Origin: Achromobacter insuavis
Lineage (GTDB): Bacteria > Pseudomonadota > Gammaproteobacteria > Burkholderiales > Burkholderiaceae_B
Length of the DNA stretch: 50,977 nt
Assembly (NCBI RefSeq): GCF_902859645.1
Contig: NZ_CADIJR010000046.1
Location: 1 to 50,977 of the forward strand
Direction: 5' to 3'
Shown: one piece after another, positions 18,881 through 45,225 of the stretch
How positions within the stretch are numbered: the stretch's first letter is position 1
Layout of the letters: each line of letters opens with the position of its first letter
The notes under the pieces: generated by a model
What the model was told of the DNA's origin: nothing
Databases searched by the model: none
Seen by the model: only the letters and a program-made list of their open reading frames with translations
Position numbers and translations under genes: made by a program

Positions 18881-18999
18881 CCGACAGCGCCGCCCGCGCG
18901 CATGGGCATGATCCTGGACCCCTTGCGCTAGGGGTTGCGATGGAACCTTTCCCGTCCTGGGGTTACTGAATGGCGTTTTCGGGCTGTCAGGAGTTCCCC

Positions 19000-24110: not shown

Positions 24111-24869
24111 TCACGCCTCGGCGGCGGCTTCCTCGGTCGCGGCGACCGGCTGCACCTGATCGATCAGGCTGGGCCAGGTGTTGATCGACAGCAGGTGGCA
24201 ATAGACCAGCGGCAGCCAGCCGTTGGCGCGCCAGCGCAGGAATTCCGCTTCCGGCAGCTTGTTGAACTTGGCTTCGTCGATCACCTTGAAACCGGACATG
24301 GCCAGGCGCTGACCGTCGGCCAGGGTGATGTCGGCGCGGTTCTCGATCAGCAGGTCGGCGTCGGCCAGCGCGCGCGCGAACTCCAGCGTGTAGGCGTGCT
24401 GGTTCTGGTAGTCGCGGCAGAACTCCAGCGCGCTGCGCGCCAGCGCGGTCGGCTCGCCGGCCTCGTCGAAGAACGGGTTGTCACGGCCCTCGACCACCGC
24501 GGCGGCCTTCTCGTCGACGCACAGCGTGTACTGGCTGCGGTCTTCGTTCTCCATGAAGATGAAGGGATAGCGGCGCACGTAGGCCGGGATGTAGGTGCCG
24601 GGGCGCCATTGGCCCTGCGCGTCGACGAACAGGTTTTCCTGGCCGCGCACGCCCAGCACCGCGACCGGCGTGGGCTGCTCGCCATCGGTGAAGACGATGG
24701 GGAAGTGGCGGCACGCGGTCGGCAGCTCGGTGGCCACCAGCGGCACGGCGTTGGTCTTGGCGGCGTAGCCGAAGCCCGTATTGCTGGCCAGCGACAGGTT
24801 GTCATGCACGCCGGCGGCGAGCGGACGGGGTTGTTCGTAGAACAGGGGAAGCGAAGTCTGCGTAGTCAT
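24111..24869 (-). CDS. SapC-family protein, third gene of the TPS operon
   Basis: A 252-residue protein of the SapC family (named after a Campylobacter fetus S-layer locus gene). The family's core is visible as HFPIVFTDGEQPTPVAVLGVRGQENLF, then GTYIPAYVRRYPFIF, and the later SGFKVIDEAKFNKLP and LPLVYCHLLS segments. There is no signal peptide or membrane helix, so it is probably cytoplasmic. Its ATG is only nine bases after the stop of the 4889-residue TpsA gene, with no clear ribosome site, implying translational coupling. The biochemical role of SapC is not established; context suggests a maturation, modification or chaperone role for the adhesin. Confidence 0.88.
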   Translation of the reverse strand: MTTQTSLPLFYEQPRPLAAGVHDNLSLASNTGFGYAAKTNAVPLVATELPTACRHFPIVFTDGEQPTPVAVLGVRGQENLFVDAQGQWRPGTYIPAYVRRYPFIFMENEDRSQYTLCVDEKAAAVVEGRDNPFFDEAGEPTALARSALEFCRDYQNQHAYTLEFARALADADLLIENRADITLADGQRLAMSGFKVIDEAKFNKLPEAEFLRWRANGWLPLVYCHLLSINTWPSLIDQVQPVAATEEAAAEA

Positions 24870-24878
24870 GATGTCGGA

Positions 24879-27800
24879 TCAGAGAGTGCGGGATTGAATG
24901 TCGAGTTCGCGGCGCGCGTCGTCGGCGGGGGGGATGCCTTCGACGGCGGGGCGCTGCGGGTTGCCGGCGGGCGTGTGCAGCACCGGGCCATTGCCGTTCG
25001 GCACGGTCAGCACGGCATTGTCGCCGGAAGGCAGCTGCCAGGAAAAGGCGGAAGCCACCGTTAGCACCTGCGGATCGGCGAAGGCGCCCAGCACGTCGGG
25101 GCCGAAGCCCTTGGACGGCACGGTGCCCTGGAACAGCGGGTTGGCGGTGGGCGTGCTGGGGATCACCGAGCGCGGGGCCGTGACCGCCGCCAGGCGGTCG
25201 ATCACGTCCGTCTGGCCCCAGGTGGCGCCGTTCATGTAGTACGGCGCGCCGGTCAGCGAGCTGCGGATCGTGGTGGCGGCCATGGAGCCGGTCTTGCCGC
25301 CGATCGTGCCCCACATGTCGGCCGAGCCGGCGTTCGGCACGGTCAGGCCGGCCACGTCCAGCTTGTGGCTCGGGTCCGCGTCGTTCAGGCCGATGCGCAG
25401 CGCGCCCGAGCCCGAAGCCAGCGTCAGGGACGTCTGCGGGCCGGTCAGGCCAATGGCGGTGATGTCGCCGTTGGTCTGGATGACCGCGTTGCCGCCCTGC
25501 AGCTTGGCCGGCGCGCCCAGGTTGATCGGGCCCTGCGTCACCAGCAGCTGGGCCGGCAGCGTGAGGCCGGCGCCGCCGGTCTGGGTGAAGCCGGTGGCGG
25601 CCTTGACCGTGCTGCCGCCGCCAAACGACGTGGTGCCGGTGGGGCTGGTGTTGGCGATGCGGATCGCGCCGGTGTCGGCGGTGACATCCTTGCCAAACGA
25701 CACGGTGCCGCCGGAGATGTCGATGCCGTCCGGGCCCGAGGCGCGCACCGCGCCGTTGTAGCTGGCGGTCTTGGCCTCCAGCTGCTGCACGCGGTAGGCG
25801 CTGACGTCGCCGTTGAACACGATGGTGTCGACGGCGCGCAGCGTCAGCGAACCCAGGCCGGTGGCGTCGCCCGCGACCTGGATGTTCTTGGCGGCGTTGA
25901 CGTTCAGGTTGTTGCCGTTGCCGCCGTCCAGCTTGCTGCCCAGGATCACCGAGCCGGTGTCGCTGGTCAGGTCACGGTCGCCCTTCAGGGTCACGGCGCC
26001 GTTGTAGACCTGGTCGCCCGTGGTGTGCGTCTTGCCGCCGCTCAGGGTGGTGGCGCCGGTGACGGCCACGGTGCGCAGCGGCGTGGTGGCGCCGACGTCG
26101 CCCTGGATATCGGCGTTGCCGACGATGACCAGGCCTTGCTGGCCCGGCTGGGTGCCGTCGACGCCGGCCTTGAGCTGCACGTTGGCGCCGGTCAGGGTGG
26201 TGTCCACGCCGCTCAGGATGACGTGCTGGCCATACTGCTGCGCGCCGGTGGTGTCGATCGAGCCGCCGTTGATCAGCACGTCGCCGTTGCCGCCGGTCTG
26301 CACCGAGGCGGCGCGGACGGGGCCGTCCAGCACGATGTCGCCGGCGGCGCTGACCTTCAGGTCGCCCAGGCGCGTACCCTGGCCGACCGGGCCGGAGAAC
26401 GTCACGTCGCCCTGGCTGGCGACGACCGTCAGGCCGCCGCCGCCATCGACCGCGCGGTCAAAGCCGATGTCGCCCTGGCGGCTGGTCACGGTGACGTTGC
26501 CGCCGAGCGTGACGTTGCCCTGGTACGACTGTTCGCCCACGGTAGTGATGGTGCCCGCGCCCAGCGTGGCGTTGCCCTTGACCGTCAGGTTGGCCAGCGG
26601 GTCGTTGGCGCCCAGCGGTCCCTTGAGCACGGCGTCGCCGTCGATGGTCAGGTCATGCCCGCCGTCGCCGCCGCCCAGCAGGCTGACGGTGCTGCCCTTG
26701 AGCACGGTGTCGGTGCTGAACACGGCGCGTTCGCCGTAGGACTGCGTGCCGGTGGTGTCGACCAGGCCGCCGTTGATGGCCACGGTGCCGCCGACGTCGG
26801 TGTTGACCGACGCTGCGTACACCGCCTTGTCGAAGGTGGTGGCGCCGTTGCTGTTGATGGCCAGCGCGCCCAGGCGGCCGGTGGTGGCGTCGCCGACCTG
26901 CTGGGTGAAGCGCACGTCGCCGCTGCCGCTGCTGACCGTCAGGCCGTTCGCGGTGGCGCCGCGGCTGGCGACGGTGTCGCTGAAGGTCACCTTGGCATTA
27001 CTGGTGCTCATCTGCGTGGCGTCGGTCAGCCAGACCTTGCCCTGGTAGGACTGCTCGCCCACCGTCTTGATCGGGCCGCCGCCCAGTTCCACGTCGTTCT
27101 CGACGGTCAGGTAGGCCAGGCGGCCATTGGCGCCGGCGCCGACCGGGCCGCCGATCACGGCCGGGCCCTGCAGGGTCAGGCCCTGCTGTTCGTCGGTCGA
27201 ATTCGCGCCCTGGGCCAGGGTGATGCTGCTGCCCTTGAGCGTGACGTTGCTGGCCAGGGTGACCAGTTCGCCGAAGCGCAGGACGCCGGTGGTGTCGATG
27301 CGTTCGCCCTTGATCGTCACGGCGCCCGGGTCGTCGGTCTGCAGCGACGCGGCATAGACCGAGCCGTTGAACGCGGTCGTGCCGGCGGTGTCGATGCTCA
27401 GGTTGCCCAGGCGTTGCGTGGCGCCGCCCACGGCGTCGAAGCTGACGTTGCCGCCGGCCGTCGAGGCCACGTGCAGGTCGCGCGAGCCGTTCAGCGTGCT
27501 GTCGAACGCCACGTTGCCCGAGGTGGTGCTCAGCGTGTGGTCGCGGCCCAGCGTGACGGCGCCCTTGTAGCGCTGGTTGCCGGTGGTGGCGATGGTGCCG
27601 GCGTTGAGCGTGGCGCTGCCGTCCAGGGTCAGGCTGGCCAGCTTGGTGGTGGCGCCGATGGCGCCGGTCAGCGAGGCCGCGCCGTCGATCTCCAGCGCAT
27701 GGGCGCCGTCGACGCCGTTGGCCAGGGTGACGGTGGCGCCGGTCAGCACCGCATCGTCGCCCAGCTCCACGTGGCCGGCGTAGGTCTGCGCACCGCTGGT

Positions 27801-30800
27801 GGTGACGCTGCCGCCGTTGATGGCCGTGCCGCCGGTGCCCGCCTGGTTGAGCGAGGCGATGTCGACCGCGCCGCCATAGGTGGTGGTGCCGCTGCTGGTG
27901 ACGGTCAGCGCGTTGGCGCCCGACACGCCGCCCGTGAAGGCGACCGCGCCGCTGCCGGTGGACACGCTGACGGCGCTGGCCAGCGTGGTCGCGCCGTCGA
28001 CGCCGAAGGCGCCGTTGGTGGTCGTGTAGGCGCCGCGCAGCGTGGTGGCGCCGTTGTACTGCTGGGCGCCGGTGCTGGTGACCTGGCGCAGGTCGATGTT
28101 GTTGCCGGTGATGGTCAGGCTGGCCAGGTTGGAGGCATTGCCGCCCAGCGTGACGTCGCCGTCGCTGGCGACGATCACCGCCTGCTGCGCGCCGCCGTTC
28201 AGCGTGCCCGAGAGGGCGACGCCGCCGTTGGCGCCGTTGGCCGTCAGGGTGCGCTTGGCGCCGGCCAGCGTGGCGCTGCCGGTGATGCCGATGGCGCTGC
28301 CGGTCAGGTCGCCGTTCAGGGTGACGTTGCCGCTGTAGGCCTGGCTGCCGCTGGTGTTGGCGGCGGCCATGGCGATGGCCGCGCCGCTCACGGACAGGTC
28401 ATGCACGTCGGTGCTGGCGATGTCGTGGCTGACGGTGACGTTGCCGGCGCTGGAGGCCAGCGTGACATCGCCGCTGTTGCCGGCCGACAGGCCGACCGCG
28501 CTGACCAGATTGCCGGTGGCGCCGATGCCGATGTTGCCGTCGGCCGTGGCCACGCGGCCCAGCGTCAGCGGGCCGCTGCCGTCCACGTAGATGTCGCCGC
28601 TGCCCAGGACGTTGGCCTTGAGGTTGCGTGCCGTCGTGGTGACGTGGTCGGCCGAGGTGCCGATGCCGGTCTTGCTGGTCAGGTCCAGGCTGTTGGCGAT
28701 CAGGCTGTTGCCCAGGCCCAGCAGCGAGCCTTCGGCGGCGCTCAGGACCACGGTGCCGTTGGCGGCGCCGGCGTTGACGGTGTCGATCTCGACGTTGCCG
28801 TGCTGCGAGGTCAGCGTGATGGTGCGGTTGCTGCCGGCGGCCGTGGCCGCGGCGGTCAGCGTGCCGGTGGCCGTGGCGTTGATGTCGCCGTTGGCGGTGC
28901 TCAGCGACGCGTCGAGCGCGCCGGTGTTGGTCAGCGTCAGGTTGGCCGGCGTGGTGGTGCCGGTCAGGCTGGCCGCGACGGAGCTGGCTTCGGTCACCAG
29001 ATTGGTGTTGCCGCCCGCGGCGCCGCTGCTGAAGCTGACCGTGGTGCCCTTGACGTTGATCGTGCGCGGCGCGGCGCCGGCCGCGACCACGTCTTGCGTG
29101 CCCTTGAGCGTGACGGTGCCGTTGGCCTGCACGCCGGCGGCGGCCAGCTTGAGCGTGCCGCCCGAGGACAGCAGCAGGTTGTCGGCGGTATTCGACATGC
29201 CGCCGCTGGCGTCCAGGTCGCCGGCGCTGGTCAGGTAGACGGAGCTGTTGGCGCCGGCCTGCTGGATGTTGCCGCTGTTGGCGGTGAGCGCCCGCGTGCC
29301 GACGTTGTTGAGCACGATGACGGCGCCGTCGGCGGCGGTCGACAGATTGCCCAGCGCGCCGAGGTTGGTGCGCAGCGCGATGCCGCCGGTGCCGTTGGCC
29401 AGGTAGGCGGCCGAGCCGATGCTGCCGCCGGCGATGGCGGTCAGGCTGTTGCCCGTGATCAGGTTGCCCACCAGCGCGCCCTTGATCGAACCGGCCGCCT
29501 GCAGCGTGACGTCGCCGGCCTGTTTGGCGTCGATCGTGTTGATCGACAGGTCGCCGCTGGTGGTGGCGATCGAGATGCCGTTGTTGGCCGAGCTGGTCTT
29601 GCTGACCGCGCTGGTGACCAGGGTCGGGCCGGCGGTGGTGATGCCGATGGCGCCGTCCTGGGTGATGACCGAGGCCAGCGTGGTGCCGGCCGCGCGGTTG
29701 TCGTTCAGGTAGAGCGAGCCGCTGCCGGTGACTTCGGCGATGATGTTGGCGGCGGTCGTCTGCAGGTTGTCGGGCGAGCCGGCCGCGCCGCCGATGCCCG
29801 CGCCGGCCTTGAGCGTGACGGTGTTGCCGATGATGCGGGTGGATTCCTCGCGGTCGTCGACGATGGTGCTGCCGGTCTTGCTGAAGTCGATGTTGACGGT
29901 GCCGGCGCCGGCGTCGATGTTGCCCGCGACCAGCTGGCTGTTGTTGCCGTTGCCGACGATCTTGATGGTGCCGTTGCTGGCGATGGCGTTGGCGATCTGC
30001 AGATTGCCGGCGGCCGCGATGTCGATGGTGTTGCCCGACAGGTACGAGTAGACGGAATTGTTGTCCGCCGCCAGGTACATGCCGCCGTTGGTGGTGACTT
30101 CGACGCGCTGGCCGGTGGCGTTGATGCGGCCGTTGACGGCGCCGACGGCGTTGGCGCCGTTCAGGGCGACGCCGTAGGCCTTGACGGTGGCGCCGGCGGC
30201 GTCGGCCAGGATCGAGCCGTTCTCGGCGTTGAGCGTGACCTGGCCGTGGTTGGCGCCGGCCTGCACGTTCTTGACCGTGATGTTGCCGGAGGTGGTCTTG
30301 ACCGAGATGTCGTTGCCGGCCGCGTCGGTGCCCGACGTGACGCTGGTCAGCGCCAGGCTGCCGTTGCCGGTGATGCGGGTCTCGCCGTTGGCGACCGAGG
30401 TCGTCAGGCCGCCCAGCAGGTTGCCGCTGCTGTCCAGGTAGAGCGAGCCGTCGCCGGTGACGGTGGCCGACACCGGGCTGTTCGGCGCGGCGATCTTGAT
30501 CGCCGCGTCGCGCGTGCCGATGCCGTTCTGCGCCGTCAGCGTGATGGCGCCGGTGCCCGCGCCCGAGAGCGTGCCGCCGCCGTACAGGATGCTGCCGGTC
30601 TGGGCGTTCAAGGTCAGGGCGTTGCCGGTGCCGTAGCTGACGGTGCCGACCAGGATGTCGCCGGTGGTGGTGGTGACCGACAGGTCGCCGCCGGCGCGCA
30701 GGTTGCCCAGGTTGATCGAGCCGTTCTGCTTGAGCCAGATGCCGCCCGAGGCGGTGGCGGCGATGTTCTTGACCTGGGTGTTCAGGGCCAGGCCGGCAGA

Positions 30801-36800: not shown

Positions 36801-39548
36801 GCCGACGTTGTTGGCCGAGACGCTGCCCGCGCCGGTGATCACGATCGGACCGCCGTTGGCCTGCGCCTGCGTGATGTTCAGGTTGGTGCTGGTGCTGTCC
36901 AGGTACACGCCGCCGAGGCCGGCGTTGGCGGACACGGTGCTGGCGTTGGTCTTGATGGCGCGCGCGGGGCCGCCGATGATGCCTAGCTCGGCCGACAGCG
37001 TCAGCGAGGCGGTGGAGATGCTGGTGGCGTCGTTGCCGTCGTCGACGATGGTGCCGAGGAGCGAGGTCAGCGTGGCCGAGCCCGCCTTGATGTCGCCCAG
37101 CGTCAGGTGGGCGGAGGTCTGCGCGACCAGGCTGCCGGTGGTGTCGATCGCCTTCAGGTTCAACGTGCCGCTGTTATTGACGTAGATGCCGCCGCTGCCG
37201 CTGGTCGCGATCAGGGCGGCCGTCTGCGTGCGCAGCGCCTGCGCCGACGAACCGATGGCGCCCGTGCGGCCGTCGCCGCCGGCGGCGCTCAGGGTGATCT
37301 GGCTGGCGGTCAATTGTCCGGTCGGGGTGCCGAGGATGTGGCCGGCCGTCGACGTCAGGGCCAGCGTGCCGGCGCCCAGGCCGATGTCGCCGACGGTGAT
37401 GGTGCGGTCGCCGGTGAACGAGAAGTTCAGGCCCGACTGGTTGACCGTGTTCAGCTGGTAGCCGCCGTTGTCCTGCAGCGCGAAGGCCAGGCCCGGCGAG
37501 GTCAGCAGGAAGCTGTTGTTGGCGCCCGGTTGCGCGTGGCGGCTGGCGATGTCCAGCGAGGTCAGGGTCTGACGGTTGGCCACCGCCAGGTTGCCGCCGG
37601 TCGCCAGCGACAGCAGCGCCGTCTGGGTGTTGACCGGGGCGGCCAGGTCGCCGATGCTGCCGCCGCTGGCGTCCAGCTTGACGGTGTTGCCCGCCACCAC
37701 CTGGTTGGCGCCGCCGGTGTTGCGGATCGAGCCCGCGCTGGTGCGGATTTGCGCCGCGCCGGTGCCGGCGTTGATGACGTTGGCCAGGTTGATGTCGCCG
37801 GTGGCGTTCAGCGTGATCGCGCCGCCGCGGCTGGTCAGCTTGCCGATGTTGTCCAGCGTGCTGCCCACGCCCAGCGCTTCCAGCGTGATGGAGCCGCCCT
37901 GGGTGCTGATCTCGGTGTTCGAATTCTCGAAGCGGATGCCGCCCGTCTGGGTCGAGCGCATCGTGAAGCTGTGGCCGCTGGTGGTCTTCAGATTGATCGC
38001 GGCCATGTCCGCGACGGTGATCTGGCCGGTGGCTTCCAGCTTGATGTTGGTGGTGCCGGCCAGGCTTTCGAGCAGGCCGCGCGACACGGTGTTGTTGGCG
38101 GTGTTGGCGTCGCCGCCGTTGACGGTGCCGTCGCCGGCGTTGCCGTCCTGCGAGCCGCTGCCGCTGGCGGAGTCGACGATGCGCAGGTCGGTCGGGTCGA
38201 TCAGCAGCAGGCCGGTCTTGCCCTTGGGCGCGCGCAGGTCGGCCGAGCCGGTCAGGCCGATGTTCTTGTTGCTGGAGACTTCGGCGAAGCCGCCGTCGCC
38301 GCCCTGGGCGCCGCCGCGCGCCGACAGGCTGCCGGCGAACGCGGTGGCGTCGTTGGACCACATCGTGACGCTGCCGCCGTTGCCATTGATGAGCGCGTCG
38401 GCCTTGAGCGTGGCGCCCGCCGCCACCTTGACGGTGGACGACTTGCCGCTGAACGCGGCCGAGCCGTCGTCGGGCGCGACGCCCAGGCTGCCCAGCGCGA
38501 TCTCGCCGCCGCCCGCCGCGCCGGACACGTCGATCGCGGCGCCGCGCGCCACGTTGACGTGTTCGCCCGTCACCACGACCTTGCCGCCGCGCTCGCCGGC
38601 GCCGGCGCCGGTGGCGTCGACGGTGCCGGCCACATTGACCGTGCCGGCGTCGCCGCCGGACAGCACGATCTTGCCGTTCTTCGTGCCCACCGCCTTGGCG
38701 CTGATGATGCCGTCGGTGTTGACCACGTTGTCGATCACGCCCTTGACGGCGCGCGCCGTCAGCAGCACCGTGCCGCCGTCGGCGCGGATCACGCCGGCGT
38801 TGGTCACCAGGGCCGAGACCGGCTTGCCGTCGGCGTCCTTGGGCAGTTCGTTGACGGTCGAGGTGGCGTCGAAGCTCAACAGGCCGTCGCCATGGAAGTC
38901 GACCGTGACGGTCTTGGCGCCGGCCAGGGCCACGCGGCCCAGCTTGGCCTCGATCACGCCCGAGTTGCGCACCGCGGGCGCCACCAGCACGGCCAGGCCG
39001 CTGTCCTTGATGCTGATCGTGCCCTCATTGACGATCATGGCGTTCGCCTTGGGCGAAGCCTGGTCGAACTTGTACTTGCCCGCCAGGAAGTCCTTGTCGC
39101 TGATGTTGGCGGTGGTGGCGACCAGGCCGCCCACGTCCACGCGCGAGCCCTTACCGAACAGGACGCCGTTCGGGTTGACCAGGATCACGTTGCCGTTGGC
39201 GTTGAGGCGGCCGAAGATGGCCGACGGATCATTGCCGACCACGCGGTTCAGCGTGATGCTGTTGCTGCCCGGCTGACGGAAATTGACCGTCTCGTTGGCG
39301 CCGATGCTGAAGTCCTTCCAGTTGATGATCGCCTTGCCGGTCGACTGGTTGATGTCCAGCGTGCCGTTGCCGCGGTCATTGATGGTCGCTCCGCCGGCCA
39401 CGACGTTGCCGCCGGTGGGGTTGGCGTGGGCGCCGCCGGAGACCAGCGAGCCGATCACCATGGCCATGGTGGTCAGCGCGGGCAGGGGCGGGGCCTTCAG
39501 GGACGGGCGGCGGGCGGATTGGGCGAGGATGCGGGATTGACGATTCAT
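24879..39548 (-). CDS. Giant TpsA exoprotein, filamentous-haemagglutinin-like adhesin
   Basis: One unbroken frame of 4889 residues. A long signal peptide ends near residue 42 (AHA then NPTGG). The two-partner-secretion domain (about 44-290) shows NWKDFSIGANETVNF, VNPNGVLFGKG (NPNG at 125-128) and the ADGGTVLLTA region. The rest is a predicted beta-helical rod in two repeat zones: about residues 700-2870 and about 3720-4530. I noticed no cysteines on reading. The C-terminus (after about 4600) is non-repetitive and has no barrel, so secretion needs the TpsB encoded 24 bp upstream. The likely role is adhesion or biofilm. The frame is intact despite 14.7 kb of repeats, which argues for selection. 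Confidence 0.93.
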   Translation of the reverse strand: MNRQSRILAQSARRPSLKAPPLPALTTMAMVIGSLVSGGAHANPTGGNVVAGGATINDRGNGTLDINQSTGKAIINWKDFSIGANETVNFRQPGSNSITLNRVVGNDPSAIFGRLNANGNVILVNPNGVLFGKGSRVDVGGLVATTANISDKDFLAGKYKFDQASPKANAMIVNEGTISIKDSGLAVLVAPAVRNSGVIEAKLGRVALAGAKTVTVDFHGDGLLSFDATSTVNELPKDADGKPVSALVTNAGVIRADGGTVLLTARAVKGVIDNVVNTDGIISAKAVGTKNGKIVLSGGDAGTVNVAGTVDATGAGAGERGGKVVVTGEHVNVARGAAIDVSGAAGGGEIALGSLGVAPDDGSAAFSGKSSTVKVAAGATLKADALINGNGGSVTMWSNDATAFAGSLSARGGAQGGDGGFAEVSSNKNIGLTGSADLRAPKGKTGLLLIDPTDLRIVDSASGSGSQDGNAGDGTVNGGDANTANNTVSRGLLESLAGTTNIKLEATGQITVADMAAINLKTTSGHSFTMRSTQTGGIRFENSNTEISTQGGSITLEALGVGSTLDNIGKLTSRGGAITLNATGDINLANVINAGTGAAQIRTSAGSIRNTGGANQVVAGNTVKLDASGGSIGDLAAPVNTQTALLSLATGGNLAVANRQTLTSLDIASRHAQPGANNSFLLTSPGLAFALQDNGGYQLNTVNQSGLNFSFTGDRTITVGDIGLGAGTLALTSTAGHILGTPTGQLTASQITLSAAGGDGRTGAIGSSAQALRTQTAALIATSGSGGIYVNNSGTLNLKAIDTTGSLVAQTSAHLTLGDIKAGSATLTSLLGTIVDDGNDATSISTASLTLSAELGIIGGPARAIKTNASTVSANAGLGGVYLDSTSTNLNITQAQANGGPIVITGAGSVSANNVGSGGGAINLTGNSIAAGQINAGSGNVTLTARAGSITGNAASLITGNVVTLLAPASNTAYTVGTAGIYLRTAANELHATGGSIYLNQAQGSVLLDDLKASNGIYVTGVANLTANMLDAGNGTLSLNAQGGNILRANANSALAGSSINLQAKQHIGTASDHINTATTSLTLGSGGDIYVDNPAKTLTYLAINNWHADPARRNTLQVAAPFLNFDVNDDLGNAYELKQVYSSLLNQFSFTGDQSLKLGNIRAGSNITLTSTQGSILDDGIADMRVTANNVSLTAAQDIGTSANYVAINAPGLTLDTRGNLYATDIADLNSLTVYARHKAADDRYTLDVRAPSLLFNITDDVGGHTIREVRDSNWINFSFNSDRDITVGSIDAGYSGSITLNAAGDLRDDGNKQTRLLANSVNLIAGKAVGATGTGYLDVLTGYLSGTASNGGFYVQLPNPTGANNYTGIVTLNNITASDAVQIDLRQGDALLANTVRSNNGSVTLNVANGSLYGNGSGSIYAGGNDITLSAAGAIGGMYNGAVRYVGVGAAGQANVQATAGTDIYLNGTTGNIKLTRLEAGTGQIGYTQSSGNTTLGSLRAGGAATLANTGGSLLDDGDAATLIRASNIALTASGAIGAAGAALTLQAPDVSLTSGGNIAVDSLTGLTRLNVTRNGSANGVYSITAPNLTAFTVTDDGLGIHLADIASSTNLDFGFTANNKNLLVGNIDAGANGKVSLVSGLNIANDNPASPGAIRAATVALTAGSNGSIGTSATGGALALTGASALSLTAGNNMYVGSDTVLRSLAINSLKNAGSASTFAISGGAGQVITISDDGTTQYLQQVTGGLTDFSFSGRKNIQVGTLTASNTISLTTTGGGVNSSITSDGTAGRITAGSVTLSATGSDSYTARDANTGAIGTSGRALRLSTSNLAITNNGDINLNNGGLALNSLNLYLSRRDAGSVNFDTNSYAFGGLGSQVMSISGGTNLAIGANMSGAALTVNTDTSITLNTINTGSGSVSLTSRYANSDLAPTIGGSGMVTANNVSLSALGTNGSVSAQTNTANLAVASAGNVSIANSKQFDSLSLTANHSSSSGSVNNTYNISATGMTAFSLSDSTGTAGLTLNNITNSGNLALSISSDRSLTVNNVTTAAGGSVTLASNGTIYGNSSSASLPNITTSALTLNAGSVTGTYATNQPLFVSVDSLSSNIRGSLWVSNNKSLTLRDNSATSSAQVNVTNGSITQGAGRFVTPVLTLTATQSIGVAGNEILTDTRQLTTQSGRNLYLDNASDLFSLNITANHANSALDNVLQVAAKGLTFNVTDAGSYVMTQVSDLTGLNFSFNGDRTLYVGNVDVGPANTVSLGAYGSGAHILNLTPTSHITGDVVTLGTSGQIGVASGDNSGSIHTTTGELYLTAGSHVYLDNDRDLASLSLYATGSSAATYQILSNELLFDVAHNGSRLQVNEVRDNTGLNLMLSSNVGQDIGIIDTTQNGTVRLSSNNSILGSADDSQRVTAASVQITTQGSGAIGAVGREINLSAPLVNIQNVGDVYIDSNRHIDALTLYSTGNGARSYSINSPTRDGGSIVFQAADGGSGSSAGLVLTKVEDKGGLNLSVTSDRTITVGAINVGYDSVVLNSRGGSLLGDGDANTKIDAAGLTLTAANAIGAAGAGNAIDTRVSTLSGRADNGGAFITVEGNTSLPSLTSTGASSVSNTTGDIELGTVNTNGNTFTVNNTGGSILSGTINNATSVNLTANGSIGNKSAIRTNALNGGTTTVTLSATKTDRADGSIALTETYGLQATSVTAPGDITLTADTGNNGRNLTVGTVTSTDGAVTLSTARGSIIGIDNSNLVTGKSVSLTANYGTASKIGTSNAALLHLNTEKLTMATPGSIYVDNLADLSDLTIIRNNAQGSNLGSAGFLTIGAKNLLFSGGDSSNATALTIVRDTTGLNFTYQAIGAINVHDIDVTQNGSVNLSTNPYYTTGGSIQGMNASSKIVAGDLTLSTATGNTPNTIGSAGLALNTQVKNIAATASGGIWLKQNGSINLGNLRAGGDLSVTTTTGDILVGTVSYGTGNALTLNAQTGSILYGGGTLSGAGTGAITLTAQNGIGTRDAAIKIAAPNSPVSATVTGDGSLYLDSSGNLLGGLTTSVANGETRITGNGSLALTSVTSGTDAAGNDISVKTTSGNITVKNVQAGANHGQVTLNAENGSILADAAGATVKAYGVALNGANAVGAVNGRINATGQRVEVTTNGGMYLAADNNSVYSYLSGNTIDIAAAGNLQIANAIASNGTIKIVGNGNNSQLVAGNIDAGAGTVNIDFSKTGSTIVDDREESTRIIGNTVTLKAGAGIGGAAGSPDNLQTTAANIIAEVTGSGSLYLNDNRAAGTTLASVITQDGAIGITTAGPTLVTSAVSKTSSANNGISIATTSGDLSINTIDAKQAGDVTLQAAGSIKGALVGNLITGNSLTAIAGGSIGSAAYLANGTGGIALRTNLGALGNLSTAADGAVIVLNNVGTRALTANSGNIQQAGANSSVYLTSAGDLDASGGMSNTADNLLLSSGGTLKLAAAGVQANGTVTLKGTQDVVAAGAAPRTINVKGTTVSFSSGAAGGNTNLVTEASSVAASLTGTTTPANLTLTNTGALDASLSTANGDINATATGTLTAAATAAGSNRTITLTSQHGNVEIDTVNAGAANGTVVLSAAEGSLLGLGNSLIANSLDLTSKTGIGTSADHVTTTARNLKANVLGSGDIYVDGSGPLTLGRVATADGNIGIGATGNLVSAVGLSAGNSGDVTLASSAGNVTVSHDIASTDVHDLSVSGAAIAMAAANTSGSQAYSGNVTLNGDLTGSAIGITGSATLAGAKRTLTANGANGGVALSGTLNGGAQQAVIVASDGDVTLGGNASNLASLTITGNNIDLRQVTSTGAQQYNGATTLRGAYTTTNGAFGVDGATTLASAVSVSTGSGAVAFTGGVSGANALTVTSSGTTTYGGAVDIASLNQAGTGGTAINGGSVTTSGAQTYAGHVELGDDAVLTGATVTLANGVDGAHALEIDGAASLTGAIGATTKLASLTLDGSATLNAGTIATTGNQRYKGAVTLGRDHTLSTTSGNVAFDSTLNGSRDLHVASTAGGNVSFDAVGGATQRLGNLSIDTAGTTAFNGSVYAASLQTDDPGAVTIKGERIDTTGVLRFGELVTLASNVTLKGSSITLAQGANSTDEQQGLTLQGPAVIGGPVGAGANGRLAYLTVENDVELGGGPIKTVGEQSYQGKVWLTDATQMSTSNAKVTFSDTVASRGATANGLTVSSGSGDVRFTQQVGDATTGRLGALAINSNGATTFDKAVYAASVNTDVGGTVAINGGLVDTTGTQSYGERAVFSTDTVLKGSTVSLLGGGDGGHDLTIDGDAVLKGPLGANDPLANLTVKGNATLGAGTITTVGEQSYQGNVTLGGNVTVTSRQGDIGFDRAVDGGGGLTVVASQGDVTFSGPVGQGTRLGDLKVSAAGDIVLDGPVRAASVQTGGNGDVLINGGSIDTTGAQQYGQHVILSGVDTTLTGANVQLKAGVDGTQPGQQGLVIVGNADIQGDVGATTPLRTVAVTGATTLSGGKTHTTGDQVYNGAVTLKGDRDLTSDTGSVILGSKLDGGNGNNLNVNAAKNIQVAGDATGLGSLTLRAVDTIVFNGDVSAYRVQQLEAKTASYNGAVRASGPDGIDISGGTVSFGKDVTADTGAIRIANTSPTGTTSFGGGSTVKAATGFTQTGGAGLTLPAQLLVTQGPINLGAPAKLQGGNAVIQTNGDITAIGLTGPQTSLTLASGSGALRIGLNDADPSHKLDVAGLTVPNAGSADMWGTIGGKTGSMAATTIRSSLTGAPYYMNGATWGQTDVIDRLAAVTAPRSVIPSTPTANPLFQGTVPSKGFGPDVLGAFADPQVLTVASAFSWQLPSGDNAVLTVPNGNGPVLHTPAGNPQRPAVEGIPPADDARRELDIQSRTL
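25985..28362 (-). repeat. TpsA C-terminal repeat zone (TTG-x-Q-x-Y units)
   Basis: Ten copies of a motif like TTGAQxYxGxVTL start near 28340, 28065, 27785, 27562, 27270, 27045, 26735, 26520, 26230 and 26002. In the later copies the spacing alternates between about 220-230 and 280-300 bp. The true unit there is therefore a two-part super-repeat of about 520 bp (about 173 residues). Confidence 0.85.
30950..37440 (-). repeat. TpsA central repeat zone (FSFTGDRTITVG units)
   Basis: Ten variants of LNFSFTGDRTITVGDI lie near 37410, 36085, 35700, 34685, 34275, 33430, 32815, 32400, 31990 and 30975. Between them run recurring TLTS..GSILDDG, IG....A and GDIYVDN..DL..L elements. Several neighbouring copies are about 385-415 bp apart (about 135 residues), while larger gaps contain diverged units. 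Confidence 0.8.
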
Positions 39549-39572
39549 GGTCGGTCGCTTTTCTGTCGCGGA

Positions 39573-41306
39573 TTAGTACTGGGCCGAGAGGCTGAAGAAC
39601 ACGCGGGGATCTTTGTTGCCCTGGGTCAGGACATCGGAGCTCATGGGCTTGGCCACTTCGATCGTGGCGTACAGGTTCTTGGTCAGGTTGGCGCGCATGC
39701 CGGCGCCGTAGGAGGACAGCTTGGCGCGGGTCAGCAGCGCGCTTTCGCTGCGCGACCAGATGTGGCCGCCGTCCACGAACGTGTAGACGTGCGCGCCGCT
39801 GGGCAGGAAGCGGTCGGTGGACACGGCGTAGCGCAGTTCCAGCGACGCGGCCACGCCCGAGTCGGCGGACATTTCGCCGTCGTCGTAGCCGCGGCCGAAG
39901 TTGGGGCCGCCCAGCGCGAATTCCTCGCTGGCCAGCAGCGGGCGGGCGCTATATTGGCCGGCGAAGGTGGCCACCAGGCTGAAGCGGTCGGACAGCTGCT
40001 GCAGGCGGGTCAGTTCGGCGGTGAGTTTCAGGAAGTCCGGGCGGCCCTTGGCGCGCGAGGCCAGCTCGTTGCCTTCCTTGGAAGCGCCCATCGCGTCCAG
40101 GCCCTGGTGCACCGTGCCGCGCACGGCGGTGATGCCGTTCCAACTGTCGGTGCGGTCATAGCTCAGGCCGGCGCGCAGCACGCGCAGGCGGTCGCGCGTG
40201 AAGGGAATGTCGATGATGTCGGTGGCGACGTTGCGCACGTCCAGCATGCCGAAGGCGCGCAGGTTCTCCAGGCGCGACCGGATCAGCGGATAGGTGACGG
40301 TGGCCGAATAGGCCTGCACGTCGCTGGCGACGTTCAGCGGCGCCAGTTCGCGGCCCGGCTCGCTCTTGGCGTAGCTGGCGGCCACGTCGACGGTGGCGCC
40401 GCTGTCGGACACCAGCATGTTGTAGTTGGCGCCCACGGCCTTGCTGCGGTAGGCCGGGAAGCCCATGCGGCCGGTCAGGGTCAGGCTGTCGGCGCGGCCG
40501 CCGAACGAATTGAGCGTGATCTGGCCGGTCATTTCGCTCCAGCCCAGGTAGGGCGAGGCGCGGTTGTCGATGCCCAGGCGCGCGTCGACCGCCTTGCGTT
40601 CGCTGTGCACCACCAGCACCGAGCCGCCCACTTCCTTGGGCGAGGCCTCCAGCGTGGCGCGCACGGTCAGGCCGTTCAGGTCGTTGGCCAGCAGCAGCTG
40701 GCGCTCGACTTCCGCCACGTTGATGGGGCGCACGCCGCGCAGGCGCTGCACCAGCTTCTCGACCGCCGCCTGGGCCGGGCCGATATCGCCGTCGTACTTC
40801 ACGTCGGCGATGTAGCCCTCGACCACCATGATGCGGAAATGGCCATCATCGATGGTCTGCGCCGGCACGATCACGCGCGTGGTGACGTAGCCGTCATTGC
40901 GGTAGCGCAGCTCGATCTCGTTGGCCACCTTGAAGGCGTCCGCGACGGTGATGGTCTTGCCGACCAGCCCCTGGTAGAGCGGGCGCAGCGAATCGGCCGG
41001 GTAGCGGGTCACGCCTTCCACGCGCATGTCGGTCAGCGTGAAGGTCAGCTTGTCGGCGCCGGCGGGCGCTTCGGTCGCGCCGCCTTGCTCCACGGTCACG
41101 GACGGCGCGGCCGGGGTGCTTTCCGGCAAGACGGGTTGCGGCAGCTGGCGGCCAGGTTCGGCGCCTGACGGCAGGCGCAACTGCACGTTCTGCGCGGCCA
41201 CTGGTCCGGCGGCGAGCGCCAACACCACGGCGGCAAAGCCGGCGCGCAAGGAGAAGGGAGGCTGGCGGAGAACGGCGGGGCGGCGGGAGTGGGCTAGGCG
41301 GCGCAT
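39573..41306 (-). CDS. TpsB outer-membrane transporter (FhaC/ShlB family)
   Basis: A 577-residue two-partner-secretion translocator. A signal peptide (about residues 1-38, ending VAAQ) and a Pro-rich linker precede two POTRA domains (about 85-240), which include FTLTDMRVEGVTRYP and IVPAQTIDDGHFRIMVVEGYI. The 16-strand barrel follows. The conserved L6 tip motif appears as FGRGYDDGE near residue 470, and the chain ends in an aromatic Tyr. It lies 24 bp upstream of tpsA, so it is the dedicated exporter. No ribosome site is obvious before the ATG. The first gene of the operon, it starts next to the AT-rich region shared with the regulators. Confidence 0.95.
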   Translation of the reverse strand: MRRLAHSRRPAVLRQPPFSLRAGFAAVVLALAAGPVAAQNVQLRLPSGAEPGRQLPQPVLPESTPAAPSVTVEQGGATEAPAGADKLTFTLTDMRVEGVTRYPADSLRPLYQGLVGKTITVADAFKVANEIELRYRNDGYVTTRVIVPAQTIDDGHFRIMVVEGYIADVKYDGDIGPAQAAVEKLVQRLRGVRPINVAEVERQLLLANDLNGLTVRATLEASPKEVGGSVLVVHSERKAVDARLGIDNRASPYLGWSEMTGQITLNSFGGRADSLTLTGRMGFPAYRSKAVGANYNMLVSDSGATVDVAASYAKSEPGRELAPLNVASDVQAYSATVTYPLIRSRLENLRAFGMLDVRNVATDIIDIPFTRDRLRVLRAGLSYDRTDSWNGITAVRGTVHQGLDAMGASKEGNELASRAKGRPDFLKLTAELTRLQQLSDRFSLVATFAGQYSARPLLASEEFALGGPNFGRGYDDGEMSADSGVAASLELRYAVSTDRFLPSGAHVYTFVDGGHIWSRSESALLTRAKLSSYGAGMRANLTKNLYATIEVAKPMSSDVLTQGNKDPRVFFSLSAQY

Positions 41307-41726
41307 GGATACGTAAGTGATAATTCGTTACAATCAGAATTAAACGAAACTATTCGATATATTTCGTAAACATCAATAAACAAAGTTTCTAAAGTTCTTT
41401 ACAACTATCCGGCACTGCGGGATTCTTGCCTGGGCAATGGCATCTTTTCGGATGCTTCACGGAGAGGGCTTGCCGGACGTGCCGTCCCGGTATCTGCGGG
41501 ATGTTGTGATCGGGAGACGCTGCGGCGGTCCGGGTCGACGAAGCGCTACCTTTTCCGGCAAGTTGCCCTATGTAACAAACACTATCATGTGTGAACAATG
41601 ATTGCGCTTGCGAGGTTTGCCGGAATGCAGGGCACGTTTGCCACAAGGAAAAATATTCATAAACCCGCGACGGTTTCGTCGCGTGTTACCAACGCGCGCC
41701 CCCACCGGCATGAAAGAATGCGCGGC
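41307..41726. other. 420-bp intergenic regulatory region between tpsB and the REC-AraC gene
   Basis: No convincing gene lies here. The left part (41310-41410) is strongly AT-rich compared with the surrounding DNA and holds the likely tpsBA promoter. On the minus strand TTGTTT and TATATC, 16 bp apart, are candidate -35/-10 elements. The right part (about 41410-41726) is of average composition, with the regulator start near 41727. Confidence 0.6.
41344..41367. promoter_or_regulatory. ACGAAA-N12-TTTCGT inverted repeat upstream of tpsBA
   Basis: ACGAAA (41344-41349) and TTTCGT (41362-41367) are perfect inverted half-sites with centres 18 bp apart, 40-60 bp before the tpsB start and within the AT-rich patch. 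Position and symmetry fit an activator or repressor dimer site, with the divergent REC-AraC protein as the first candidate. Confidence 0.45.
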
Positions 41727-42548
41727 ATGAACGACGCCGCCTCCCATCCGCTCCTTCCTGGCCAGCTTGCGGGCCTGCGCGTGCTGGTCGTCGAGGACCG
41801 GCCCGAGGACCGCATGCTGCTGGTGGATTTCCTGACCAGCCAGGACTGCCGGGTCTATGTGGCCGAGGATGGCAACGACGGCTACCGCAAGGCGCAACTG
41901 GTGCAGCCGGACATCATCCTGATGGACGTGAACATGCCGGTCTGCGACGGCCTGGCGGCCTGCCGGCTGCTGAAAGCCGACCAGGCCACGCGCGCCATTC
42001 CCATCATCTTCCTGACCGCCGCCGCCTTGCCCACCGAGCGGGTGGCGGGGCTGTCGGCGGGCGCGGTCGACTATGTCGCCAAGCCGTTCGATTTCGAGGA
42101 AGTGCGCCTGCGCCTGCTGATCCACCTGCGGGTGGCGCCGGTCCCGGCGCCCGCGCCGGCGCCGGTCGAGGCGGCGCCCGGGGACGGCACCTCGGCGGTC
42201 GCCGCCGGCACCTCGCTCGACGGGGTGCTGTTCCGCGCCGCGCGCAAGCTGCTGCGCGAACGGCTCGACCACACGCCCGAGCTGGTGGCCCTGGCCCAGG
42301 CGCTGGGCACCAACGCGCGGCGCCTGAACCAGGCCTTCCGGCGCTGCGCCGGCACCACCGTGTTCGAGTTCCTGCGCGAAGAGCGCATGCGCGAGGCGCG
42401 CCGCCTGCTGTGCGAGACCGGCCTGGACATCCAGGCGATTTCGCAGGCGGTGGGCTTTGGCAACCGTGGCAATTTCTCCACCGCTTTCCGCGAGCGTTTC
42501 GGCATGGCGCCGACCGCCTTGCGCCAGGAACGGGATCCGCATGCGTAG
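41727..42548 (+). CDS. Response regulator with receiver and AraC-type DNA-binding domains
   Basis: A 273-residue regulator. The receiver domain (about residues 14-130) has the acidic pair in VVEDRPEDR, phospho-acceptor D67 (ILMDVNMPV) and the Lys in YVAKPFD. An Ala/Pro-rich linker (about 135-160) leads to a C-terminal AraC helix-turn-helix pair (about 175-270) with FEFLREERMREARRLL and ISQAVGFGNRGNFSTAFRERFG. I chose the ATG at 41727, with GAAAG about ten bases upstream; ATGs at 41718 or 41598 are possible. Its stop overlaps the hybrid kinase start by eight bases. It faces away from tpsBA across the shared promoter region and is the likely regulator of that operon. Confidence 0.92.
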   Translation: MNDAASHPLLPGQLAGLRVLVVEDRPEDRMLLVDFLTSQDCRVYVAEDGNDGYRKAQLVQPDIILMDVNMPVCDGLAACRLLKADQATRAIPIIFLTAAALPTERVAGLSAGAVDYVAKPFDFEEVRLRLLIHLRVAPVPAPAPAPVEAAPGDGTSAVAAGTSLDGVLFRAARKLLRERLDHTPELVALAQALGTNARRLNQAFRRCAGTTVFEFLREERMREARRLLCETGLDIQAISQAVGFGNRGNFSTAFRERFGMAPTALRQERDPHA

Positions 42549-45225
42549 TGTCCGTCCGGGCGTGTTGGCCTGGTTGCTGTGGCTGGTGCTGTCCTGCCTG
42601 ATCCTGCCCGTGCGCGCGCAGGCCGTCCAACCCGTCATCGACCTGAGCGCGGTGAGCGGCAGCCTGCCGCTCGACAGCGAGCTGCGCGGCATCGAGGACA
42701 AAACCGCCAGCCGGGACGCCAGCCAGATCCTGGATGACGCCTGGCAACCCGTGTCCGCCGGCTGGCTCAACCGCGGTTATTCCACCTCGGCGTTCTGGCT
42801 GCGGCTGGAAGTGCGTAACACCTCCGGCAGCACCCAGGAACGCTGGCTGTCGTTCGGCGTGCCGCGCCTGGAAGACGTGCGCTTCTACCTGTTCCCGGCG
42901 GGCAGTGCGACGCCGGCCAGCGTGCTGCTGCAGGGCAACCGCGAGCCGCTGGCCCAGCGCGCGGTCCCCGCCAGCGTGTCGGTGGCGCCGCTGCGGCTCG
43001 GGCCGGGCGAGCGGATGACGGTGCTGGTGCGGGTGCAGAGCCGCTCGGCCATCAGCATGGAGCCCACCTTGCGCACGCCGGCGGCGTTCGTGAGCCAGAC
43101 ACAGCGCAACACCCTGCTCGTGGCGCTGCTGGTCGGCGCGCTGGCGATGGTCGGCATCTGCGCCGGGTTGCTCGGCGTGGTCCAGCGCGATCCGGTGTTC
43201 CTGCTGCTGTCGGCCGCCATCTTTGTCGAGATTCTCTACAGCCTGTCGTTCCAGGGGCTGCTGTACCGCTACGTGCTGACCGGCGGCGGCGAGATGGCGC
43301 TGCGCGCGCCCAGCGTCCTGGCGACGCTGGCGGCGTCGCTGTTCGCCTTCATGGCGATGCTGTTCGCGGACCTGCACCGGGTGCCGCTGTGGCGCCGGGT
43401 GTACCTGTCGCTGATCGCCGCCGGCGTCGCCGGCACGGCCTGGGCGGCGCTGGGCGACTACCGCGAGGCCGCGCAGGCGCTGATCGGCCTGATCTTCCTG
43501 TGGGCGCTGGTCTGGCTCGTCTCCATGGCCGACGGCTGGCGCCGCGGCCACGCCAACGCCCGCACCTTCCTGTTGTCCTTCGCCGTCTATTGCGCCTGCC
43601 TGTTCCTGCGGGTGGCCTATATCCACGGACTGCTGCCGGGCCGCTGGGAGGGCGGGCCGGAAGTGGCCTGGGACCTGCTGTCGATTTCGCTGATGCTGGC
43701 CGTGCTGCTGTATGGCCGGTCGCGCCAGCATCGCCAGGAGCGGCTGGCGGCCCAGCGCGAGCTGGCGCAGGCGCGCGAACGCGAACACCAGCGGCTGGAC
43801 CAGGCCGTCACCGAGCGCACCCAGGCGCTGCAGGCGGCGCTGATCCTGGCCGACGAAGCCGGCCGGGTGCGCCAGGACTTCCTGGCGCGCATCAGCCACG
43901 ACCTGCGCACGCCGCTGACCTCGATCATCGGCTTCGCCGACCTGATCCAGGCCGGCGGCCGCGACGACGCGCCGCGCGGCGCCGTCATCCGCCGCAGCGC
44001 CGACCACATGCTGGGCATGGTGAACGACCTGATCGACTACGCCGCGGGCGCCGGCGGCCAGGCCCTGCGCCTGGCGCCCGAGTATGCGCATGCCTTGCTC
44101 GATACCGTCGCCAAGGAGTCCGCGCCGATCGCGGCCCGGCAGGACAACCGCTTCGAACTGCGGGTGGCGGACGCGGTGCCGGCCGTGCTGGAGATGGATG
44201 GCAAGCGCGTGCGGCAGGTGCTGTCCAATCTCATCGATAACGCCGCCAAGTTCACCCGCGACGGCGTGCTGACCCTGACCGCCGACTACGCCGCGCCCGC
44301 CCCGGGCGAGAGCGCCGGCTGGCTGACCTTGTCGGTGGCCGATACCGGCTGCGGCATCGCGCTGGAAGACCGGCAGCACATCTTCGAGCCCTTCCAGCGG
44401 CTGTCGGCCGCCGAGAGCCAGCCCGGCGTCGGGCTCGGCCTGGCCATCGTGCAGCAATGGGTGCAGCGCATGCACGGCCGCATCCACGTCTACAGCGAAG
44501 TGGGCCAGGGCACCACGATCCGTGTGGCGCTGCCGGTCAGGGAGGTGGACGAGTCGCGCGTGTCGCATCACTACATCGCGGCCGCGGCGCACGTCCTGCC
44601 GCTGCTGGACGGCACCGGGCGGCGCATCTGGCTGGCCGAGGATACGCCGGAAATCCGCGAATTCCTGGTCGAGGAACTGGCCAGCCTGGGCTTCCAGGTC
44701 GACAGCGAGGCCGACGGCCTGCGCATGCTGGCGCGCATCCAGGCCGATGATGCGAGCCGCCCCGACCTGATCCTGACCGACCATCGCATGGAAGGCGCCG
44801 ACGGCTCGGCGGTGCTCGCGGCCGCCCGCGCGCGCTGGCCGGACCTGCCGGTGGTGGCGGTGTCCGCGACGCCGCAGGAGGCGCCCACGCTGGATGGCGG
44901 CGGTTACGACGCCAGCCTGCTCAAGCCCATCAACCTGGTCGAACTGCGGCACGTGCTGGGCCGGCTGCTGCATCTGTCGACGCAACAGCCCGCCAGCGAG
45001 GCGGCGCCCGCGTCGGCGTCGCTGCCGCGCCTGTCGCGCGCCGAGCTGGAGCAGGTGCAACGCTTGCTGGACATCGGCGGGATCTCGGACCTGATGGACT
45101 GGGCGCGCGCGATCCAGGCGCGCGATCCGGCCTTCAAGGATTTCAGCGAGCAAGTGCAGCGTCTGGCGCGGCAGGGCGACCTGGCGGCGATCGGCCTGCT
45201 GTGCGAGCGGATGCCGGTGGCGTGA
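42541..45225 (+). CDS. 7TM-DISM hybrid histidine kinase
   Basis: An 894-residue membrane sensor. After a signal-like N-terminal helix comes a periplasmic 7TMR-DISMED2 domain (about residues 35-185: YSTSAFWLRLEVRN, RWLSFGVPRLEDVRFYL). A block of seven membrane helices follows (about 190-400), then a coiled coil (about 400-440). H453 lies in RISHDLRTPL. The ATPase has LSNLIDNAAKFT, DTGCGIALEDR and GVGLGLAI. A C-terminal receiver (about 695-815) carries D747 (LTDHRMEG) and a short helical tail follows. DISMED2 domains commonly bind carbohydrates. Overlap with the REC-AraC gene makes them a phosphorelay pair. Confidence 0.93.
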   Translation: MRSVRPGVLAWLLWLVLSCLILPVRAQAVQPVIDLSAVSGSLPLDSELRGIEDKTASRDASQILDDAWQPVSAGWLNRGYSTSAFWLRLEVRNTSGSTQERWLSFGVPRLEDVRFYLFPAGSATPASVLLQGNREPLAQRAVPASVSVAPLRLGPGERMTVLVRVQSRSAISMEPTLRTPAAFVSQTQRNTLLVALLVGALAMVGICAGLLGVVQRDPVFLLLSAAIFVEILYSLSFQGLLYRYVLTGGGEMALRAPSVLATLAASLFAFMAMLFADLHRVPLWRRVYLSLIAAGVAGTAWAALGDYREAAQALIGLIFLWALVWLVSMADGWRRGHANARTFLLSFAVYCACLFLRVAYIHGLLPGRWEGGPEVAWDLLSISLMLAVLLYGRSRQHRQERLAAQRELAQAREREHQRLDQAVTERTQALQAALILADEAGRVRQDFLARISHDLRTPLTSIIGFADLIQAGGRDDAPRGAVIRRSADHMLGMVNDLIDYAAGAGGQALRLAPEYAHALLDTVAKESAPIAARQDNRFELRVADAVPAVLEMDGKRVRQVLSNLIDNAAKFTRDGVLTLTADYAAPAPGESAGWLTLSVADTGCGIALEDRQHIFEPFQRLSAAESQPGVGLGLAIVQQWVQRMHGRIHVYSEVGQGTTIRVALPVREVDESRVSHHYIAAAAHVLPLLDGTGRRIWLAEDTPEIREFLVEELASLGFQVDSEADGLRMLARIQADDASRPDLILTDHRMEGADGSAVLAAARARWPDLPVVAVSATPQEAPTLDGGGYDASLLKPINLVELRHVLGRLLHLSTQQPASEAAPASASLPRLSRAELEQVQRLLDIGGISDLMDWARAIQARDPAFKDFSEQVQRLARQGDLAAIGLLCERMPVA

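Follow-up and report, generated by a model that had tools for sequence, protein, structure and literature searches.

Gene Content of the Locus

In this study, we performed a computational analysis of a surface-protein locus of Achromobacter insuavis, carried on a 50,977-nucleotide stretch of DNA (the window; contig C46 of a 6.8 Mb genome). The locus comprises a two-partner secretion (TPS) pair, tpsB and tpsA, a following gene of the SapC family, sapC, and a divergent pair encoding a REC-AraC response regulator and a hybrid histidine kinase. Our comparisons showed that tpsB, tpsA and sapC occur together in several genera and that the regulator pair adjoins them within Achromobacter. The reading we prefer, with a probability of roughly 0.55, is that of a portable surface-fibre module, tpsB-tpsA-sapC, joined in Achromobacter by an acquired sensor-regulator pair. 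The features are as follows.

24111-24869, minus strand: sapC (PF07277), 252 amino acids (aa), predicted cytosolic partner of TpsA; Pfam SapC 1.7e-68
24879-39548, minus strand: tpsA, filamentous exoprotein, 4889 aa; PF05860 TPS domain, adhes_NPXG
39573-41306, minus strand: tpsB, predicted outer-membrane exporter, 577 aa; POTRA_2, ShlB
41325-41382, minus strand: tpsB-side block, putative core promoter, aligned over 12 genomes
41570-41662, plus strand: REC-side block with tandem GTTTGCC repeats, candidate autoregulatory site or N-terminal coding sequence
41727-42548, plus strand: REC-AraC response regulator, 273 aa; alternative starts 41598 and 41625
42541-45225, plus strand: 7TMR-DISM hybrid histidine kinase, about 894 aa

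The five genes, with the order and domains given in the first-pass annotation, were all recovered from the open reading frame (ORF) list and Pfam, and the ORF coordinates returned the same head-to-tail gaps, 24 bp between tpsB and tpsA and 9 bp between tpsA and sapC. The REC-AraC gene was also correctly said to overlap the kinase gene, by 8 bp if the kinase starts at ATG 42541; this is most likely the start, and the ribosome-site-like GGAACGGG precedes it (the Pfam scan of the kinase was run on a longer ORF from 42457). Three in-frame ATGs, at 41598, 41625 and 41727, could start the REC gene, and the 420-bp intergenic gap of the annotation holds for the last of them but not for the other two. 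The guanine plus cytosine content of the locus genes (0.68–0.72) equals that of the flanks (0.70–0.72), which gives no sign of recent import; a foreign base composition was thus ruled out.

TpsA and TpsB

Whole TpsA had no match in Pfam, its first 400 aa alone matched the TPS domain PF05860 at 4.5e-38, and NCBIfam adhes_NPXG matched the whole protein at 2.9e-23. The TPS domain lies near aa 42–310, with NPNG at 125, and the protein is cysteine-free, with eight T.G.Q.Y motifs at aa 3732–4509. Among solved structures, the N-terminus matched EtpA best (1.8e-53), followed by entries named adhesin and heme/hemopexin-binding protein, which we take to be HMW1 and HxuA. TpsB matched POTRA_2 (3.5e-18), ShlB (2e-26) and Omp85 in Pfam, and CdiB (5.5e-15) among solved structures. 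A TPS domain on TpsA and, immediately upstream, the gene of a TpsB with POTRA and an Omp85-type barrel place the pair in type Vb secretion, and TpsB is predicted to be the exporter of TpsA. The described TPS adhesins (EtpA/EtpB, HMW1, FHA/FhaC and HxuA) likewise have a TPS domain with NPNG and a TpsB with ShlB-type POTRA and barrel, whereas the locus here differs in its 4889-aa TpsA, in its third gene, sapC, and, in Achromobacter, in the divergent kinase/REC-AraC pair.

Some 2.6 kb beyond sapC, at 18970-21546 on the plus strand, lies an autotransporter gene (PF03797, 858 aa), which is followed by a TctC-type receptor gene.

Distribution Within Achromobacter

We searched 43 Achromobacter genomes; as scoring was confined to the top 20 kinase and 59 REC candidates in each of them, distant copies may escape. 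The kinase (73% identity or more) was found in 13 genomes and REC-AraC (89% or more) in the same 13. A tpsB orthologue (79% or more; partial in G224) was present in 14, namely these 13 and A. insolitus (G207), and a sapC orthologue (89% or more) in 15, the 14 genomes with tpsB and G217, where a sapC frame and a remnant of the tpsA end remain and a tpsB orthologue is absent. Counted from the TpsB search, sapC is present in 14/14 genomes having tpsB. The SapC of the window shares 99% identity with its A. ruhlandii counterpart and 98% with the one in A. dolens.

The regulator pair adjoins tpsB in all 13 genomes carrying it, with 377–420 bp from the REC start equivalent to 41727 to tpsB (12 genomes from the alignment, G226 from match coordinates). 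Regulators occurring mostly without tpsBA, the pattern named as contrary to the first-pass annotation, were therefore not what the genus displayed, as all 13 genomes with the pair have both tpsB and sapC. The surroundings are diverse: comparison of 1.3 kb of flank gave six unrelated groups beyond sapC (14 genomes) and seven beyond the kinase (13 genomes; G224, with 145 bp, was uninformative). Four contexts (the window's group, the G168 group, G209 and G075) are distinct on both sides, and as the test spans 1.3 kb per side, different flanks need not mean different chromosomal sites.

The TPS Core in Other Genera and on Plasmids

To remove the bias of SapC-first sampling, TpsB was used as the query. 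Among 200 genomes of the family, TpsB at 68% or more was found in 10, all of which carry a close SapC, and neighbourhoods were read for nine of them. Six of the 10 belong to other genera, comprising Bordetella ansorpii (G068, G176), group g5 (G077, G100 and G120, two of them filed as Bordetella sp. and Achromobacter sp.) and Pollutimonas bauzanensis (G061). In all six, tpsB, tpsA and sapC stand together. A more diverged version was present in two g43 genomes (G116, G096), where tpsB (30%), tpsA (48% in the TPS domain) and sapC (42%) are found together; five other g43 genomes have sapC with no tps match on either side, and gene lists were read for two genomes.

On plasmids, 8 of the 14 TpsB records reached 48% or more (seven Azospirillum and Thalassospira marina), all with a SapC at 56–60%, located 14–20 kb from TpsB on the same strand in seven records and about 28 kb away, across the record start, in NZ_CP012916.1. 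The annotated order in T. marina and A. brasilense is ShlB/FhaC/HecB, filamentous hemagglutinin N-terminal and SapC family. Four further Azospirillum records with TpsB at 32–34% were not among the SapC records listed, and for the Niveispirillum and Skermanella records the SapC status was not readable from the matches listed. The stretch from tpsB to the kinase gave only a 51-base kinase match on plasmids, in five Salinibacter records.

The expectation that all five genes would be conserved together in relatives was thus borne out in 13 of the 43 Achromobacter genomes, but not in A. insolitus or in the six genomes of other genera. As a conserved entity the five-gene unit was rejected outside Achromobacter, where the core stands without the regulators. 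From this distribution, the evolutionarily kept unit appears to be tpsB-tpsA-sapC, and the regulator pair an Achromobacter addition.

The Regulator Pair and the Intergenic Region

REC-AraC combines Response_reg with HTH_18 in Pfam and matches PDB entry 12aw across residues 17–268. The kinase has 7TMR-DISMED2, 7TMR-DISM_7TM, HisKA, HATPase_c and a C-terminal Response_reg; its HisKA histidine, ATP-binding and receiver motifs look intact, and no HPt match was found in it. The REC-AraC family is widespread, often with an adjoining 7TM-type kinase, and matches of 1e-25 or better occur in 58 of the 200 genomes of the family.

Twelve intergenic regions (13 rows, the window appearing twice) were aligned and read by eye, and two conserved blocks were recognized. 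The tpsB-side block is probably the core promoter, with a -35-like element, a 17-bp spacer and a -10-like element as judged by eye; in seven genomes lacking a linked pair, also compared by eye, a similar stretch precedes tpsB and is weakest in Pollutimonas. The REC-side block contains tandem GTTTGCC repeats 21 bp apart (41615, 41636), a pattern occurring once in the genome, and is kept at three unlinked Bordetella-group REC genes, so that the best-conserved element at the REC gene travels with that gene. These observations speak for autoregulation or an extended REC protein more than for a common switch, and the tandem element may be coding if REC starts at 41598 or 41625. Although the REC-side block follows the REC gene and the tpsB-side block looks conserved with or without the pair, control of tpsBA-sapC by REC-AraC remains plausible and, on the whole, likely.

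A sensor system beside a giant TpsA gene is familiar from Bordetella, where BvgA is of the LuxR type and BvgS carries Venus-flytrap sensors. The regulators here are a REC-AraC protein and a 7TMR-DISM sensor, tpsB directly precedes tpsA, and sapC is present. In the B. bronchiseptica cluster, fhaB is described as adjoining the divergently transcribed bvgAS (PMC2225982), a divergent two-component locus next to a giant TpsA gene as at our locus, so the regulatory arrangement has a precedent with different protein families. The first-pass annotation knew of no described TPS system with such five genes; among the papers listed, our literature searches found none that joins SapC with two-partner secretion or with a halogenase.

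SapC and Its Neighbours Across Pseudomonadota

SapC matched PF07277 with 230.9 bits (cut-off 28.9) over model positions 4–220 of 220. Its hydropathy profile has no hydrophobic N-terminal stretch, and a cytosolic site is therefore likely. No sequence relative was found in PDB with two profiles, and none of 19 pattern matches in IMG/VR was confirmed. Beyond the S-layer locus of Campylobacter fetus, the literature searches gave no functional description of the family. That locus uses type I secretion, in contrast to TPS at the Achromobacter locus, and its SapC is presumably a PF07277 member. The sapCDEF genes are reported to be indispensable for the S-layer (PMC4943207), which again sets a sapC gene within a surface-protein locus.

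PF07277 occurred in 139 of 397 sampled Pseudomonadota genomes. We read 60 SapC loci of 58 genomes, chosen from the best-scoring matches listed and not at random; the SapC gene was called in 56 and recovered afterwards in the remaining four. Six loci (L225, L234, L237, L239, L257 and L269) have a tpsB within 5 kb of SapC, against 0.20 expected from 71 ShlB matches and genome sizes (Poisson 8e-8; a second estimate gave 0.18 expected). At L247, also labelled TPS, tpsB is about 19 kb from SapC, probably with a giant gene between, and a second SapC of G619, outside the 60 loci, adjoins a tpsB as well. Other loci hold giant proteins with HlyD, M50-HlyD, OEP or SecA-like genes, while still others have TonB receptor, Cupin_8, Trp_halogenase or DUF6445 genes or no recognisable partner. 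In many loci SapC is immediately behind the giant gene or exporter; elsewhere it is one or two genes off, before it, or divergent. By our own gene calls, giant genes were more frequent near sapC (9/219) than far from it (4/473, p 0.006).

Twenty-two of 50 SapC plasmid records were read. One was without annotation, and the 21 annotated loci comprised three TPS, four autotransporter, four type I or LEPR-XLL and ten without a clear partner by rule. The LEPR-XLL/DUF4347 and autotransporter loci resemble ours in that sapC adjoins the gene of a giant exported protein or is separated from it by a few genes, but their export machinery is other than TPS. In G227, giant-protein loci with sapC occur twice: one sapC is at a TPS locus, and the other (L286, G227:C1:1747500-1756500), with 36% identity, adjoins a 289-aa gene, an OEP gene and a giant DUF4347 protein of more than 2062 aa.

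A tree of 109 SapC proteins (23 TPS, 17 giant, 17 TonB, 4 autotransporter and 48 other; L296 and L302 left out) required nine changes for the TPS label, six of them forced by well-supported branches, and likewise eight (seven) for giant, three (three) for autotransporter and two (one) for TonB; an earlier tree of 89 proteins gave six for TPS. Label changes may be losses, and the labels are rule-based (L158 was kept as other despite a giant gene near it). These repeated changes suggest that different giant exported partners were kept or gained several times. Two-component genes within 7 kb of SapC were found in 5/30 TPS, giant or autotransporter loci and in 1/57 others (p 0.017, uncorrected), which is suggestive only; the test was insensitive and overlooked L289, with a response-regulator gene about 5 kb from sapC, and L225 was labelled giant in it, as in other earlier counts, and TPS later.

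Several further neighbours recur. A SecA-like protein of about 660 aa (L268:10366-12345, L264 and L273) is found near SapC and giants, accompanied by HlyD-GAF and M50-HlyD proteins, and the three may form an unusual export set. In Methylobacterium and Terrarubrum (L290, L307), sapC is separated from the giant autotransporter or TPS genes by genes of the invasion-associated locus B family. A solitary sapC is beside Crp/Fnr-type regulator genes in a g43 genome (L048, where the neighbour is presumably Fnr, going by the start of its sequence) and in Thiodictyon (L294).

Proposed Model and Alternatives

In the model we prefer, TpsA would pass through Sec and then TpsB to form a giant beta-helical fibre, surface-bound or secreted. 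SapC, a cytosolic protein encoded on the same transcript as TpsA, would serve it as a dedicated chaperone or maturation factor, acting on the chain during export or earlier. The divergent 7TMR-DISM hybrid kinase and REC-AraC regulator would have been acquired by the module in Achromobacter, where they may adjust its expression to a signal from the envelope or from outside the cell. Several findings weigh against this model. A. insolitus has tpsB, a 6266-aa tpsA and sapC without the regulators, and neither regulator is beside the core in the six genomes of other genera. Two group g20 genomes (G105, G083) carry SapC at 66–70% with no tps match on either side; about half of the SapC loci are without a giant surface-protein partner; and on the tree 48 of 109 rows lack a surface-protein neighbour by rule and 17 are in TonB-receptor/halogenase loci, so that SapC is not confined to giant-protein loci. 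No convincing REC-AraC site shared by both promoters was seen in the 12 aligned regions or the seven tpsB upstream regions. The AlphaFold2 model of SapC, built from 14 sequences, was unusable (predicted local distance difference test score, pLDDT, 52), and hence no fold search was made. Taken as a whole, the first interpretation is partly supported: the linkage holds within the genus, and the five-gene unit does not hold beyond it.

It is doubtful that the regulators are an unrelated two-component system, a neighbour of the operon by chance in Achromobacter, whose main targets are its own genes and others elsewhere. Such a view would fit the orthologous pairs away from tps genes, namely in both B. 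ansorpii genomes, on another contig than the core (REC about 75%, kinase about 60%), and in G163 of the Bordetella group (90% and 72%), with no tps genes in the 20 kb read around any of the three; it would also fit the REC-side block kept at these unlinked pairs and the tpsB-side block that looks conserved where the pair is absent. Against it stand the 13 of 13 Achromobacter pairs directly beside tpsB, at 377–420 bp, in several flanking contexts. For the earlier statement that REC-AraC switches the operon, no DNA site linking the protein to the tpsB promoter emerged in the regions compared by eye. Quite improbable, in our judgement, is an ordinary TPS adhesin or contact-dependent inhibition operon with sapC as a passenger. 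The TpsB and TPS domains are standard, and in most other-genus rows TpsA varies most over its last 89 aa (24–52% identity); yet Pfam detected no toxin domain in TpsA and no domain at E 0.1 in its last 389 aa, the gene behind tpsA is the conserved sapC and not a variable immunity gene, and in five other-genus genomes SapC is 72–90% identical where the TpsA body (aa 601–4800) is mostly 32–62%.

SapC might also be a regulator or a small-molecule enzyme, brought near surface genes through common mobile or regulatory contexts and not a partner of TpsA. Its presence in TonB receptor/Cupin_8/Trp_halogenase loci, or alone beside a Crp/Fnr gene, accords with such a role, which we nevertheless consider unlikely, given that SapC often stands directly behind a giant gene or exporter whatever the export route, and that among the matches listed every genome and plasmid with a close TpsB has it. 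The suggestion that SapC may assist the adhesin gains from the wider comparison, through its recurrence beside giants. Extending our preferred model, we tentatively propose that SapC may help, as a general cytosolic partner, to make giant surface proteins: a chaperone or maturation enzyme independent of the export route and repeatedly recruited by type Va, type Vb, type I and LEPR-XLL loci, of which the Achromobacter locus would be a signal-controlled portable version.

In the Achromobacter module a presumed surface fibre and a sensor of its own are combined in little space, much as in bvgAS-fhaB. Of greater interest than the regulator pair is the recurrence of SapC beside giant surface proteins. 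Should SapC serve such proteins regardless of route, secretion models would be missing one step in how they are made.

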